From assembly GCF_020520425.1 (NCBI RefSeq), contig NC_079487.1, positions 109,774,141-109,838,140 on the forward strand: a DNA stretch of 64,000 nt. The letters are read 5' to 3'. The DNA is from Spinacia oleracea (taxonomy: Eukaryota > Streptophyta > Magnoliopsida > Caryophyllales > Amaranthaceae). This document shows, piece after piece, positions 42,943 to 54,466 of this stretch. Made by a program: the position numbers and the translations under genes. Numbering within the stretch: the first letter of the stretch is position 1; every line of letters begins with the position of its first letter. A model generated the notes under the pieces. That model had not been told where the DNA came from. It made no database searches and was given only the letters and a program-made list of their open reading frames with translations.

Positions 42943-43012
42943 TAAATATTAATAAATAATTCATAATTAATAATTAATAATTAATAATCCGTAATTAATT
43001 AATAATAATAAT

Positions 43013-46000
43013 AATGCGCTAATGGTCGTTTAGGGCAGTTCCACGGCCATCTCCGACGGCTATTCCGGCACGGCGAAGTTTCGCAGCGGCGCGCAGGACT
43101 CAGGCAGGGTTTAAGCAGCGGTTACTGGCGGTTTTTCAGGCGGTTACCACGACGTTTGGGTGCAGTTTCGGTGATATTCTGGTGCAGTTTCTGGTGCGGT
43201 GTTTCTGGGTTGTGGTTACAGCGACGACCGAGGCTGTTTATAGGGCAATTACCGGCGAGTTTGGCAGGCGGTTTTGGGCGTTTCTTGATCAATTCAGGCG
43301 AGTTGTTTCTTAGTCGTTTCAGGCGAGTTGTTGATAAGTTCCGGCGACATTCACGCTGTTACGTGGAGTGTGTTTGGTGTTTGGATTCACTGCTATTACG
43401 TGGGTTTCTGGCCGGCTGCTTCCTTTGTCCGACGACTTTGGAAGAGCTTCCAGTTGAGTGATCGACGCATCCTTATTGAATTGGGGTTGGTGTAACTTGT
43501 TATTTCGTGAGCAGTAGAGCGAAGGGTGTTGGGGTTCTGGTTATTTGTTTGTTGACAAGCTGGTTGCAGAAGGGTGTAGCTTTCTTTAAAGTCAAAAGTT
43601 GTGTTGCGGTGGTGGAGACTAGTTTTCTCGGCGTTGTGTTGAGGTTAGTGGGGCAGTTTACCGGTAGTTTTTGGTGCAGTTTCCGGCAGTTTTTGGTGCA
43701 GTTTACCGGCAGTTGTTTTGGTGAATTTTCGATCGACGTTCGACGGGGAATTTTTGGTGAGTTCCGTTTCAGATTCAGTGCGGTTGAAGTGCTTTGATAT
43801 GGTTACTTCCGTGGAGAAGTTTCATTGCCCTTTTGTGGGTCTTAGCGGGTGCCAGGATGGAGGTGGGCGTGGTCTGGTGAGGAGTTCTCTGATCACTCAC
43901 TTACAGGATCGTCATTGTTGCACTGGAGTGCGGGATGTAACCCGTCATTCCCTTACTACCAATTTGCAGGTATTTTCTACGGCTGAGGTGACCTTTCGTC
44001 GTATGGGAATTTGGCTATGTGGAGATTGTTTCAAGACGCATACTCATCGTATTAGGTGTCGACATGGCAGTGGTTCTAGTATTGTTTTTGTGGACCCACC
44101 TGATTCCGGGGATGGTACTATTCGTTTTATTCTCTACGGTATTTAAAAACCGCAAGCTCCTACTTCCGAGCTGTCTACCTCTGATGCGCCTCGAGAACAT
44201 CATTTTTCTTTTGATGTTGCTCTTCTAGACACTTTATTGTCTTAGCGGTTGCGTTCTGTGAAATCCATCCCTCCTAAATGTCGTTTGGGTTTTTCGCGAG
44301 TTCTAAAAGGGGTGCTTGATAAGGTGATTTGGAGACCAGATGACATTGCTTGTTGGGTTCAGTTGCTCGTGTTACCTCTTTGTGTCCTGAAGACTTTTTA
44401 TCCGCGAAGTAATCGTGAGTGTTCCTCCGGTGTTAGGCGGCGACTACAGGAAGAAAGTATCACCTCTGCTATTCGTTCTTGGGGTGTGCCTGGTGGTTCT
44501 GAGCAACTTGTCGTAGACACATTGGCTAGCGTGTCTCCCCCTCTATTGGATGTTGATGAAGACCATGATTTGGCGGAGCGTAATATTAAGCAATGTAAGA
44601 GAAAGATTTCTGGCGGTCACTACACTGCTGCCGTTAGAGTTCTTTCGTCCTCAGGTCTTGCCCCTTACAATGATGCTACTCTTGCAGATTTGCAAGCAAA
44701 GCACCCTTCAATTCCGGTCCCTACCTTACCGGATATCCCTGTTGATCATCACCTTACTGCTTCCTCCGCTGTTGTGTTGGAGCAGATTAGGGGCTTTCCG
44801 TGTGGTACTTCGTGCGGTAGAGATGGCTTACGTGCTCAACACCTTTTGGATTGCTTGGGTGGTGCTGTTGTAGCTGTTTCTGATGAGTTGGTGGACTCTA
44901 TCACTCGGGTAGTTAATCTCTTTCTTGTTGGAAAGTGTCCTGCTGAGCTTTGAGGATATATTGCTAGTGCTCCTCTTACGCCACTTGTTAAGCCTGGTGG
45001 TGGTATTCGGCCTATTGCTGTGGGCACTATTTGGAGGCGCCTTGTTTCTAAGGCCGGGGCTGCTGTGATTGGTCCGCGTTTAGGGAACTACTTAGGAGGG
45101 CTTCAGTTTGGAGTTGGGGTTCCAGCAGGTGGTGAGGCCATTCTCTATGCTGTCAATCGTTTGGTTGAGGCTCGTGGGGCCGATGTTGGCCTCTCTATGT
45201 TATTGGTGGATTTTCAAAATGCATTCAATTTGGTTGATCGATCGGCTTTGTTGCGTGAGGTTCGGCTACATTGTCCTGCTCATTCGCGTTGGGTTGAATT
45301 CTGCTACTCTTCTCCAGCGCGGTTGTATTATGGGGAGCATACCTTGTGGTCTTGTTAAGGTGTGCAGCAAGGGGATCCTCTCGGCCCTTTGCTATTTTTT
45401 TGGTTCTACATCCATTGGTGTGTCGAATCAGAGACTCTTTTGATCTATCTCTTCAGGCTTGGTACTTGGACGATGACACTATCGTTGGTGACACTTTGGT
45501 GGTTGGAAAGGTCTTGGAATTGATTTTGGAGGAGGGTCCTCATTTAGGTCTCCATGTTAATGTTGAGAAGACAGAGGTTTTCTGGCCTTCGGAGGATCCA
45601 CGCAGTCGTCTAGAGGGTGTCTTTCCTACGGATATTGTTCGTCCTGCGCTTGGTGTTAAGTTGCTTGGTGGTCCAGTCAGTACGGATTCCTCTTTTTGCA
45701 AGGAGTTGGTTTCGCGACGGGTGTCGAAGACTGTTGTGTTGATGGATGCTGTAGCTAAGCTTAATGATCCCCAGTGTGAGTTGTTGCTTCTTCATGCGTG
45801 CACTGGAGTTTCTAAACTCTACTTTGCTATGCGCACTTGTCCGCCTCATCTTTTTGAAGCGGCATTATTCTTATGGAGGGTTGGGTGTTTATTCAGCTGG
45901 TGATGTTCGACATTATGCTTTTCTTGCATCCCGTTTGCAGTCTTCTGGTTTGCAGGATTCGCTTCTTCGGCTTTCGGGTGTTGATGGTCCGGGGTCGGCC

Positions 46001-48235
46001 TTTGATGATGCTCTTGGTCTTTTCAATAGGACCGTGGAGCAGGGGAGGACCTATGGATACCCCATAGGGTCCATAGGGACCCCCATTATTTTTTTTAAAA
46101 AATTAGAAAGTATTTAAAATTTGAATTAAAAAAAAAAAATGTACTTGTGGTCCCCCAATAAAGTCAGCAATAATATGGGAAGGAAAAAAAAGATGGAACA
46201 AAATTCCAACTTTGAAAAAAAGTCACGTGAAACCTGTAAAAGGAGAGGAAAAGTTAGGCTTTTTACTAATTCCCAAAATTGTAATACTTCCAAGACTAAT
46301 TATTATTGAATAAAAAATTAAAAACCCACATTTTCTTGTTTTTTACCAATACAACGACTCTTTGTTTCCCTGACTTCTGCTTTTTTGTTCATTGCTAATG
46401 GGTTTCAATCTTCTCACTCTCTTTCTCATGAATCTCTCATAATCAATTAACATTGGATTTTTATTTTTCAAATTAAAAAAGTAGGAAGCAAATAGCACTG
46501 CAGTGCCGCCGTGCCGGAGTGCGAGCTGCGGCTGCGGCGCTGCGCTTCAAGAAAGTGCCGCCTCCGACGGTCCGACCTCCGTTACTGCCCAATTCGACGC
46601 GGCGGCGCCACCGCCTACTCACGGCCTCACGCGGACTGGTATTACCTTCTTTAATCTTTACTCTTTCATTTTTTAAATAATCAATTTATAACATTTTATG
46701 GTTCAATTTAATTAGGTTTAAGTGTTAACTATTTTGTAAATTAGATTTTGGGTAATTTCAAATTTCATTCATAAAATTGAATTTATTGGTACTTTGGTAG
46801 TGTTTGGTACTTGGTAGCTTGGATGATTTATGATTGAGTGTTGAATTTAAATATTTAATTAAATAATTGAATACTTGTTTATTTGAATTATTGAATTAAT
46901 GGAATCCTTGATTTCGAATTTCATTCATAAAATTGAATAAATTGGTAGTGTTTGGTTGTTTTGATGATTGATTGTTGAATTTAAATATTTATTGAATTAT
47001 TGAATACTTGATTTTTGAATTATTGAATACTTCATTATTAAATATTATTTGAATACTTCACTATTATGAAGCGGTTTCAAGGAATGCAAAATCGTCGAGG
47101 GAAAATGTAATTTATTTATTTATTTTTTAATATTTTCATTAGTTTTATTGTATCTTATGAACGAATTTATTATTTTGAGTTTTCAAATTTTTAGTTGACT
47201 TTTAATTTTGACTTTTATAGTTGACTTTTATAGTTGACTTTTAATTATTTTTTTGCAATGAAGTTGTATTTAATTTTGGACCCCCATTTTATAATTCCTG
47301 GGTCCGCCCCTGCCGTGGAGACCGACTTTATGAGTAGCCCTAGTGAGATCGCTTCCCCCACTCTCATGAAGAAATTGGCAGACATATATTTCACGAAGGT
47401 TACTGCTGATGCGGAATCCGCCTACTCCTTATCTTCACGTCATGTTGCCCTTTGGAAATCACAGCAGGGGGATCACTCCTCAGCTTGGTTGCGGGTAGTC
47501 CCCATATCGGGTTTAGGCCAGACTATGAACGGTAAGACTTATCGTTCGGTTCTTTGCTATCGGTTGGGTATTCCGTTGTTCTCTGATTCGACGCCGTGTT
47601 CTGCTTGCTCTCGGGTTTTCGATGGGGACATTTATGGGGATCATGCCGTGTCTTGTGCTGGGATTGTGGGTATCAAACATCGACATAATGTTGTTCGTGA
47701 TACCCTTTTGGATATTTTCTATCGGTCGGGGATTTCTGCTCGCAAGGAGGTTGATGTTGGGCTGACTAGTGAGAGTGATGGAGCTCTTCGTCCTGCAGAT
47801 ATATTTCTTTATTCATGGGATGGCGGTCTAGATGTGTGTGTTTACTTGACTGGGTCTTCCCCTATGACGCAATCTGGGTTGTCAGACTTCGTTCCGGGTC
47901 GGGTTGTGGCGGTTGCTGCGCAGCGGAAGCAGGATAAGTATGCGGCACGTTGTAGGGCTTTGGGTTACGGTTTCTTTCCTTTTTCCTTCTCTTCTTTTGG
48001 GGAATTAGAGAAAGGGGCTGTTTCGTTGCTGAAGCGGGTCCAGACGTACTCCAGGGCTCAAGACATTGGGGCCGGGCAGCTACCCACATTTTCAGCAGGA
48101 TCGGGTTCGCCATAGCTAGAGGAGTGGGGGCCCAGATTGTATCTCGGCTCCCCACCAACTTCTTGTAGTTTACTTTATCTTTGTAGCTTGTTAAGATTGT
48201 AACGTTTTGGTGGTTTCCCATAATAATAATAATAA
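43013..48235 (+). mobile_element. RLE-type non-LTR retrotransposon, copy 1 (defective)
   Basis: The element lies between (TAA)n tracts: AATAATAATAATAAT precedes it (about 42998-43012) and the tail at 48221-48235 is TAA repeats. A GC-rich leader of about 780 bases precedes the ATG at 43799. Coding order: N-terminal zinc finger (Cys-Cys-His-His, FHCPFVGLSGC to THLQDRH, with a second WLCGDCFKTH motif); reverse transcriptase (LVDFQNAFNLVD, GVQQGDPLGPLL, AWYLDDDTIVGD); CCHC motif (CSACSRVFDGDIYGDHAVSC, about 47597-47660); then RPADIFLYSW and LDVCVYLTG, fitting a PD-(D/E)XK restriction-like endonuclease. This order matches R2/R4-type elements, not L1. Several stops (44146, 44248, 44951, 45356), frameshifts, a deletion near 45870 and a hAT insertion at 46040-47312 disable it. 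Confidence 0.8.
46040..47312. mobile_element. Non-autonomous hAT element inside copy 1
   Basis: Inverted ends CAGGGGAGGACC and (inverse) CAGGGGCGGACC with a perfect 8-bp duplication CCGTGGAG (46032-46039, 47313-47320). Removing the insert makes the host reading frame continuous. The interior is 1273 bases, AT-rich apart from a GC-rich block at about 46495-46640; no transposase is visible. A subterminal palindrome, ACCCCATAGGGTCC, lies near the left end. Confidence 0.92.
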
Positions 48236-48368
48236 CTATTGCTATAGCCAGGGGAGTGGGGGCCCAGATTGTATCTCGGCTTCCCACTAACTATTTGTAA
48301 ATTTTTTGACTTTGTAAGCATTTTATTTATAATAATAATAACAATAATAATAATAATAATAATAATAA
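48236..48368 (+). mobile_element. Copy 3: 5'-truncated 3' end of the same non-LTR element
   Basis: Begins CTATAGCCAGGGGAGTGGGG, equivalent to the last 18 codons of copy 1 (GAQIVSRLPTN and a stop), continues with the shared 3'UTR (TTGACTTTGTAAGCATTT) and ends in (TAA)n. It directly follows the TAA tail of copy 1. Confidence 0.8.
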
Positions 48369-48799
48369 TCTATTACTATATATACTAAAAGAGACACCAG
48401 GAATGACACGTGTCAATTCCTGGTGCGATTTTCCCCATTCAAAAACCACTTTCCAAAATAGTGTATCTGTTTTATTTTATTTTTATTTTATACCTTTTTT
48501 TTATAAACTATTTATGTATGGAAGCAAAATTTAGTTTATAAATTATGGCAATAATAGATACGACGTAATAATAATTATTCTAAATGGGTAATATTTTAGT
48601 CAAATCGCTATATTAATAATGGAAAATATATCACTCAATATTTTGGTCAAATTACCATATTTTAAATATGCACATTAGATGAATACATTTAAACGAGTAT
48701 GTTAAAAATGATATAACTATGCAGTAGCTTAGGAGATATTCAGTTAATATTTTGTGAAAAAAATGATCAAAATCCGTGCGTGCACGGGATTTAATCTAG
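48369..48799 (+). mobile_element. Complete small Helitron (431 bp) in the TAA array
   Basis: Starts TCTATTACTATATATACTAA, ends with the hairpin CCGTGCGTGCACGG, spacer and CTAG, then T. Flanks read ...TAATAA | TAATAATAA..., so the TAA repeat is restored on removal and the A/T insertion rule holds. No coding capacity. Confidence 0.88.
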
Positions 48800-48810
48800 T
48801 AATAATAATA

Positions 48811-48888
48811 ATCGATCGAGGAGTGCTGGGGGCCCAGATTTTTCCCACTAACTATTTGTATAATATTTGACTTTGTTAGCATTTGATT

Positions 48889-48925
<37 letters not shown>

Positions 48926-48932
48926 TATTATT
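48811..48932 (+). mobile_element. Copy 4: short degenerate 3' end of the same non-LTR element
   Basis: GGGGGCCCAGATTTTTCCCA and CTATTTGTATAATATTTGAC match the tail of copies 1 and 3 with a small deletion, then TTGATTTATAATAATAATAA into a (TAA)n run that meets the inverted (TTA)n of copy 2. Confidence 0.7.
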
Positions 48933-48934
48933 AT

Positions 48935-50345
48935 TTTTATTATTATTATTATTATTATAAATCAAATGCTAACAAAGTCAATCATTTTACAAATGATTAG
49001 TGGGCAGCCGAGATACAATTTGGGCCCCCATTCCTCTAGGTATAGCAAAACCTATCCTGGTGAAAATATGAGCAGCAGCACGAGCCTCAATGTCTTGTGT
49101 CCTAGAAAACTTCTGGATCCGCTTCAGCAACGCAACAACATCCTTATCCAACTCACCCAAAGAAGAGAAAGAGAACGGAAGAAAGCCATAATCAATGGCC
49201 CTGCAACGTGCTTCGTACTTGGCCCGCTTCCGAATAGCCGCATCAGTCACAACCCGACCTGGGGCAAAGCCAGACAACCCAGGTTGTGTCAAAGGAGAAG
49301 AACCCGTCAAGTCAACACACACATCACAACCCCGATCCCAAGAGTAGAGCAACACGTCTGCTGGTCGGAGAGCTCCATCGTTCCCTCCAGATAGACCAAT
49401 ATCAACCTCTTTCCGCGCCGAGATCCCAGACCGGTAACAAACATTAACAAGGGTATCCCGAACCACATTATGACGATGTTTAATACACACAATGCCAGCA
49501 CATGACACCGCATGATCACCAAATATGTCTCCCACAAAGACCTGGAGCAAGCAGAACATGGCACCGTAACAGAGAACAAAGGAACCCCCAACCGGTAACA
49601 CAACACACATCGATAAGCCTTAGCATTCATCGTCTATCCCAAACCTGATATGGGGACCGCACCGAGCCAAGCAGAGGTGTGATCTCCCTGCTGCGATTTC
49701 CGCAACGCCGACTGCCGAGACGATAAAGAGAAGGTGGATTCTGCAGTTGCAGTAACCTTTGTGAAATATATATCTGCCAATTTCTTCACAAGTTTAGGGG
49801 CAGCGACCTCACTAGGGTTACTCAGAATGTCATACTCCACCGTTCCACTAAATAGACTCAACGCATCTTCAAATGACTGACCAGGACCAACAATATTAGC
49901 ATGCCGTAGAAGCTGTGTCTGCAAACCAAAAGACTGCAACCGAGAGGCAAGAAAAGCATAATGCCGAACATCACCCGCGGAATAAACACCAAGTCCGCCA
50001 AAAGAAAAAGGTAAGGTGGCAAGTCGCCACTGCCAATCGCCAAAGCCAGGCCTCGAAGCAGTAACAGTACGCTCCAAAGAAGATCGAAGAGCCTCATCGA
50101 AAGTGCGATGCGCAGCCTCAAAAATACCAGGAGGACAAGTACGCAAAGCAAAGTAGAGTTTAGAAACTCCGGTACATGCCCTAAGCAACAACAACTCACA
50201 CTGAGGATCATCAAGCTGAGCAACCTTATCCATAAGCCCAATGGCTTTGATTACCCTTTGCATCACAAGCCCACCACTAAAAGCACGATTGGAACTAGCG
50301 GGACCGCCATGCAACTTAACACCATGCAAAGGACGAGCATGATTG
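48935..50345 (-). mobile_element. RLE-type non-LTR retrotransposon, copy 2 (5'-truncated)
   Basis: Minus-strand copy with its (TAA)n tail at 48935-48958 facing the tails of copies 3 and 4. Coding begins mid-thumb near 50329 and continues in one frame (CELLLLRACTGVSKLYFALR, GLGVYSAGDVRHYAFLASRL, ADIYFTKVTATAESTF) to a stop near 49634, then in other frames. It keeps GDIFGDHAVSC, HRHNVVRDTL, RPADVLLYSW and CDVCVDLTGSSP, the acidic residue that copy 1 has lost, and ends VSRLPTNHL at 48987. The region equivalent to the copy 1 deletion is intact. The loss of everything upstream is typical of incomplete target-primed reverse transcription. Confidence 0.82.
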
Positions 50346-53217: not shown

Positions 53218-53280
<63 letters not shown>

Positions 53281-53300
53281 TAATATAATAATAATAATTT
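53218..53300 (+). repeat. TAA microsatellite
   Basis: About 22 uninterrupted ATA units followed by a short degenerate stretch. The predicted poly-Asn frame across it is an artefact. Confidence 0.95.
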
Positions 53301-54466
53301 AACAAACACATAAGTACAAATTGATAAACAATTCTTATAAAACTAGTACCTATAACCATAAGTAACAAGGGTTTATTGTTAATTTCTTATAAGTTCACCA
53401 TTTGAGGAATGTGGATCGCGTCCACCACCCATTAGTATATATTAAACTATTGGATGTAACCACCAGAAAAATATGAATCTAGTCCACCACCCAATAGTAT
53501 TGGACTATTGGATGTAACCACCAAACAGGTCTTAGTCTTTAAGTGTGCACACCCCCCGGTGAATGTTTTTAACTCAAAGGAGTAGATTAAGCCTAGGGTC
53601 GTGCTCATGGCTCCGACCAAATAATAAAGCACAATGTGCTATTTAACCGGTTCATACAATATCTTAGAGAAAAAGGAATTAGGAGATGATCAATTATCAT
53701 CCCAAAATAGTACCAGTAACACTAATACTCAATATGAACAATACCACTAATTCCTTAATAATAAACTTATGGGAATCATCTTAGTACCATCAACGTACTC
53801 ATGGTAAGAGAAAATACAACACTAGCTTTGATATAAAATAAAATACATAACAAGCAAGAATATATAAAAGATAGATACTAGCAGATAACCATATATTCCA
53901 AGTGGGTCATATATATCACAAAACACACAATTCTAATAAACTCATAAAGAAATCAGTGCGATTACAACTGATTAATATAAACACCTCTAAAGAATATGCG
54001 TAATTACACATAATAAATAATATACACAAACAATATAAAAGGACTATGTGCGCGTGATTACAACTAATAATATACAAAAGGGACTAAGCGTAATTACTAA
54101 CTATTAATTAATAAAGCCAAGAAACTCTATAACAATCTAAACCTCTAGAATATATAGATTGACCCATTCCAAATTTCCAATATCAATCCACAAATAAACT
54201 AGACCCTTAGATATCTACACATATACTAAATAACAGTGACTAATATAATAAGAAATCTAAATCAACAATATTATCCATGAGTTGAGCATTTATCCAATAC
54301 ACGTTATCACATTATTAACTTATAATTAGACATAAAATTTATACTATATATAACAAACAACTCCAAAGACCTATACATGATTATATATAATAATCAATAC
54401 TTAATTATGAATAATTTAAAGAGACTAAGTGTGCGTGATTACCTTCCCGGAAATGAGAAAAACATA

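Follow-up and report, generated by a model that had tools for sequence, protein, structure and literature searches.

Retrotransposon copies in the window

The window analyzed here, a 64,000-nucleotide stretch of the spinach genome (C1:109774141-109838140; the assembly comprises 894 Mb in 242 contigs, six of which are of 115 to 189 Mb), contains four copies of a non-long-terminal-repeat (non-LTR) retrotransposon family that encodes a restriction-like endonuclease (RLE) and adjoins (TAA)n microsatellites. From these copies and others elsewhere in the genome, we conclude with high confidence that this is an autonomous, recently mobile plant family that encodes a single protein of ~1063 amino acids and inserts in one orientation into (TAA)n, including the ends of earlier copies. 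The domain order, the predicted fold, the microsatellite location, the single orientation, and the recent spread were computed here.

Copy 1 (43015 to 48219, forward strand) is nearly full length and broken. It is bounded on the 5′ side by a TAA/TAAT-rich repeat (42950 to 43014, with a pure TAA run at 43000 to 43014) and on the 3′ side by (TAA)n (48220 to 48234), in agreement with the original prediction of TAA repeats on both sides. The 5′ untranslated region (UTR) extends from ~43015 to 43798, the protein region from 43799 to 48159, and the 3′ UTR to 48219. The tblastn match of P0002, one unaltered example of the intact family protein, begins at 43799, and the following features lie downstream on the forward strand: an N-terminal Cys2His2-type finger (43826 to 43918; residues 10 to 40 of P0002), a reverse transcriptase (RT) region (44903 to 45864) with YLDD at ~45463, a zinc knuckle of the form C-x2-C-x11-H-x3-C (47597 to 47656), and an RLE core (47684 to 48046). 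The frame is disrupted, including within the RT region, by stops, one frameshift, and a foreign insert of ~1.27 kb (46040 to 47312) that is not present in the long genomic copies L044 and L039. The RLE core reads RPAD ... DVCVYLTG, so that the second catalytic Asp is gone.

Copies 2 (48235 to 48328) and 3 (48812 to 48889), both on the forward strand, are 3′ ends only, and each is flanked by TAA on both sides; the (TAA)n 3′ of copy 2 occupies 48329 to 48370. Copy 4 (48960 to 50338, reverse strand) is the C-terminal half of a 5′-truncated member of a second subfamily, with 73 to 77% DNA identity to copy 1 in its coding part. Its RLE domain (48990 to 49541, reverse strand) retains RPAD and DVCVDLTG intact. 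The latter pair of motifs had been predicted for two copies in the window, which is correct for copy 4 and for all 20 long genomic copies described below and incorrect for copy 1. As had also been predicted, each of the four copies gives way to (TAA)n at its 3′ end, and two of them, copies 3 and 4, lie in opposing orientations on either side of a (TAA)n/(TTA)n tract at 48890 to 48959. The presence of TAA at junctions exceeds chance, as 55,152 bases of flank outside the junctions contained 14 TAA/TTA runs of at least 12 bp.

Genome-wide family and the intact protein

Genome searches with the C-termini of copies 1 and 4 gave at least 143 and at least 150 matches, respectively, counted among the best candidates scored out of 1938 and 2107 first-look candidates; the two match lists may overlap. 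Twenty long regions (L039 to L058) were fetched from the copy 1 C-terminus matches, mainly on the basis of their long open frames. In 16 of these 20 copies, the protein is 1063 to 1064 amino acids long from the first Met, and in the remaining copies it is 957 to 1061 amino acids long. In intact members, a single protein of ~1063 amino acids carries the finger, the RT with YLDD, the C-x2-C-x11-H-x3-C knuckle, and the C-terminal nuclease, and this order, given in the original prediction, recurs among the long copies. YLDDG, RPAD, DVCVDLTG, and the knuckle were each found in 20/20 of them, while the finger was found in 18/20, as was a C-x2-C-x-K-T-H-T-H motif.

A Pfam scan of P0002 at an E value of ≤1 returned RVT_1 alone (6.2e-14), with no match to the apurinic-type nuclease family. 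A sequence search of the PDB with P0002 placed R2 proteins best (5.3e-6), with L1 ORF2 at 0.54. Among the five chains listed for a four-row profile, the alignment extended across the knuckle and nuclease in the two R2Tg chains, without significance there alone (E values of 12 and 15), but not in the L1 chains. The family thus consists of RLE-encoding non-LTR retrotransposons, with a non-LTR RT and an N-terminal finger in one open frame, a knuckle followed by a predicted PD-(D/E)xK nuclease, and no apurinic-type endonuclease.

Predicted fold of the C-terminal nuclease

The predicted structure of the copy 4 nuclease domain (predicted local distance difference test [pLDDT] score, 69; predicted template modeling [pTM] score, 0.70) has a PD-(D/E)xK core. 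It includes two Asp motifs, and the predicted helix that follows the third strand bears a conserved lysine; D941, D956, and this lysine are predicted to be catalytic. When this model was used in a Foldseek search of the PDB, all seven matches at an E value of ≤0.001 were to R2 retrotransposons (1.2e-6 to 4.5e-4 against the R2 RLE). The C-terminus of the family is therefore predicted to fold as PD-(D/E)xK, with R2 as the best match to the model.

TAA repeats at insertion edges

A (TAA)n run lies upstream of the element in 18 of the 20 long copies, and L040, with a run of 15 bp, is the nineteenth, so that in 19/20 the 5′ end abuts sense-strand (TAA)n or lies shortly downstream of it. In 15/20, the homology between copies ends at the 5′ TAA run (at the run itself in 14 and ≤8 bp from it in L048). 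Among 53,242 flank positions used as a control, 288 (0.54%) had a sense TAA run of at least 12 bp no more than 10 bp away. The TAA orientation is that of the element sense strand at 19/19 5′ edges and 20/20 3′ edges, and the antisense orientation was found at none. Of 30 loci from the copy 1 C-terminus search, the window copy included, 28 have a strict TAA run after the 3′ end; in the other two, L031 and L012, the 3′ runs are interrupted.

In L053, L054, and L056, an earlier copy with its TAA tail precedes the element, which gives head-to-tail nests, and most other 5′ flanks have no similarity to the element. In L047, L051, and L058, sequence that by eye resembles the 3′ UTRs of other, diverged families ends at the same TAA run, and several families may share TAA sites of this type.

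Paralogous empty sites

L046, L049, and L054 have 3′ flanks from a single repeat family, which is interrupted at one point. Two insertions are nested at the L054 site, where the long copy lies in or adjoining the TAA of an older 3′ end. When the joined L054 flanks were used as a genome query, 42 matches were obtained, two of which were L054's own flanks, and 20 crossed the junction (junction at query positions 200 to 212; matches starting at or before 135 and extending beyond 400). All eight of the junction-crossing paralogues examined (of 20) lack the element and have, at the junction, a TAA/AAT-rich tract that varies in length and purity. The microsatellite is therefore part of the repeat itself rather than something that arrived with the element, which argues that TAA is a target and not a tail alone. 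Two further copies of the L054 repeat family, at C5:109131465-109131687 and C6:46932226-46932476, adjoin listed members of the retrotransposon family, and this type of site has probably been struck further times, at C5:109131465 and C6:46932226.

Divergence among copies

Nearest-neighbor divergence of the open frame ranges from 0.12 to 4.44% (20 copies, 190 pairs). The nearest neighbor is at ≤0.27% in 13 of the 20 copies, and the median of all pairs is 1.7%; the family has spread recently. Between lineages, the 5′ UTRs diverge far more than the coding part, and such strong differences beside close coding parts may reflect 5′ UTR exchange. A start motif near GGCGATTAGGGC recurs among the 5′ UTRs of L039 to L058.

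Comparison with known elements

The R2 elements of Bombyx mori, Taeniopygia guttata, and Platysternon megacephalum share with the family both the RLE fold and the order of finger, RT, CCHC knuckle, and RLE. Residues D996, D1009, and K1026 of R2Bm, as described in the available portion of the report (PMC10499050), match the two Asp motifs and the predicted-helix lysine of the family. R2Tg has KPD where the family has RPAD, the spacing between the two Asp residues is 15 in the family and 13 in R2, and the C-x2-C-x11-H-x3-C form of the knuckle is unlike that of R2. R2 is found in 28S ribosomal DNA (rDNA), whereas the family sits at dispersed (TAA)n sites and so lacks this feature of the R2 clade. 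The N-terminal apurinic-type endonuclease of L1 is likewise absent from the Pfam scan of P0002.

Dong, a member of the R4 clade from B. mori, is of the RLE type. It sits at TAA repeats and has a hepatitis delta virus (HDV)-like ribozyme, according to the part of the source available (PMC3774820). The TAA-repeat target is common to Dong and to the spinach family, a likeness drawn without RT comparison, and the host of the latter is a plant; TAA targeting thus extends beyond animals. A search of the 5′ ends of nine family loci with Rfam found no HDV-like ribozyme; its output consisted of weak CrcZ and sR30 matches that scored below their gathering thresholds. Insertion into microsatellites has also been described for some HERO families and for the (TG)n-associated Togen of fish, which is related to NeSL, in the available text of a paper that names five RLE clades, CRE among them (PMC4640811). 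These elements resemble the family in microsatellite use by description rather than by sequence; their hosts differ, as does the repeat in the case of Togen.

Plant LINEs (long interspersed nuclear elements) generally described are L1 and RTE elements with an apurinic-type nuclease. In the open-access literature, we found no description of an RLE LINE that targets TAA in land plants. In a 2019 survey of spinach with MGEScan-nonLTR, 642 full-length LINEs totaling 2.98 Mb, at ~4.6 kb each, were filed as "CRE" and 22 as "R2," with non-LTR elements amounting to 2.4% of the genome (PMC6337768). The "CRE" label is a program assignment, and in the portion of that paper available, the nuclease and the TAA target go without mention. 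The 642 elements probably include the TAA-site family, so the original suggestion that it is already present in databases under generic names appears to be borne out, if only in part. The family suggests that this published label conceals an element with a testable target rule. LINEs are also reported to be present in Spinacia and not in beet in the available part of a second study (PMC7840529). The family offers a means to study target-primed reverse transcription (TPRT) at a defined repeat in a plant.

Relatives and reverse transcriptase phylogeny

When GTDB contigs were scanned for the motif QQGDPLGP, 91 loci were obtained, seven of which (L081, L090, L103, L112, L117, L135, and L148) are relatives; L081, L090, and L112 are related along both the RT and the C-terminus. 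The relatives, which are RLE-type retrotransposons, lie on short contigs filed as bacterial metagenome-assembled genomes (MAGs) in GTDB and are probably eukaryote contamination. TAA was found 3′ of the frame in none of the five relatives with readable 3′ sequence.

The RT tree comprised 15 rows, including the family, the relatives, R2, and four spinach L1 elements (L001, L002, L006, and L008), and had no rows for R4/Dong, CRE, HERO, NeSL, or RTE. In this tree, the family grouped with six of the MAG-binned relatives at 91/93 (not starred). The four L1 elements, which share with the family a non-LTR RT and the same genome, formed a separate group (99/99), with the TAA-site family outside it and no wider sample of L1 included. 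The order of R2, L1, and the family is not fixed by the tree (approximately unbiased [AU] test, P = 0.285 for the family with R2 and 0.284 for an L1 sister relation). Among the contrary outcomes named in the original prediction was an RT within L1 or RTE together with a C-terminus that does not fold as PD-(D/E)xK; the fold is predicted, and in a tree without an RTE row, the RT does not fall among the four spinach L1 elements.

Weighing of explanations and proposed mechanism

An ordinary plant LINE whose RNA ends in (UAA)n would also leave sense-strand TAA after its 3′ ends, as observed here, while inserting at unselected sites; in the I factor, TAA is such a 3′ tail. A tail would give neither the 5′ TAA of 19/20 copies nor the TAA/AAT-rich tract that 8/8 empty paralogues hold without an insertion. 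These two findings contradict the tail-only outcome envisaged in the original prediction, and we regard this explanation as very improbable. It is also unlikely, to a lesser degree, that survival or chromatin accounts for the TAA enrichment, with a weakly specific nuclease whose microsatellite insertions persist or with old TAA tails that seed a nest. The placement of L053, L054, and L056 in the tails of older copies, the tail-like sequence (by eye) of other families upstream of L047, L051, and L058, and the nest in the window itself are in line with such a process. Against it, 12 of the 13 young copies (those with a neighbor at ≤0.27%) have 5′ TAA, the exception being L045, and most of the other 5′ flanks are free of similarity to the element.

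A further alternative, that the family is a plain R4-clade member of the Dong lineage in a plant, would account for the TAA target that Dong has in the available text (PMC3774820) and for the same kind of domain order. We consider it doubtful given the grouping with MAG-binned relatives in a tree without R4/Dong rows. The lack of 3′ TAA in the five readable relatives suggests that the TAA target may be convergent. We tentatively entertain, as possible rather than probable, that a deep RPAD-signature RLE lineage, spread across unrelated eukaryotes and distinct from CRE, R2, R4, NeSL, and HERO, has the family as its plant branch, and that in spinach the family evolved TAA targeting independently of Dong and became a prominent, recently active LINE. 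If true, this would run counter to the usual view that confines the LINEs of land plants to L1 and RTE.

Several observations weigh against an RLE family that targets (TAA)n. The truncated 5′ end of copy 4 (~50340) lacks flanking TAA, and the 5′ end of L045 (~1640, oriented) joins the coding region of an older copy without TAA, the sole such case among the 20. In L039, L040, L052, and L058 (4/20), TAA lies upstream of an element-like start whose edge lacks confirmation by a second copy. The 20 copies are a nonrandom sample picked for long frames and similarity to copy 1, and none is of the copy 4 subfamily. The empty sites are paralogues rather than orthologues and come from a single repeat family, and the L054 site is doubly occupied. 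The nuclease models have low-confidence ends, the first model being weak overall, and the four-row profile scores R2 (1.7e-15) close to L1 (2.8e-14), so that the RT alone cannot separate them. Finally, LINEs account for <0.1% of spinach by read clusters in the part of the source available (PMC7840529).

The original prediction of a plant RLE family with microsatellite targeting nevertheless agrees with the predicted PD-(D/E)xK fold, the 5′ TAA in 19/20 copies, and the eight of eight empty paralogues. By analogy with R2, the family most likely moves by R2-like TPRT at (TAA)n, working like Dong. The RLE would nick the TTA strand of the repeat, and the freed (TTA)n 3′ end, once paired with the terminal (UAA)n of the element RNA, would prime reverse transcription. 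Early stops of synthesis would yield 5′-truncated copies, and the target may be read by the finger, the RLE, or both.

Additional features of the window

A long TAA run of ~80 bp is located at 53218 to 53313, where no adjoining element of the TAA-site family was found; it is a potential unoccupied target. The 5′ UTR of copy 1 contains short internal repeats at 43649 to 43723 (TGGTGCAGTTTACCGGCAGTTTT). Between copies 2 and 3, one TAA run is split by a piece at ~48371 to 48801 (TCTATTACTATATATAC ... CTAGT), which we take to be Helitron-like.
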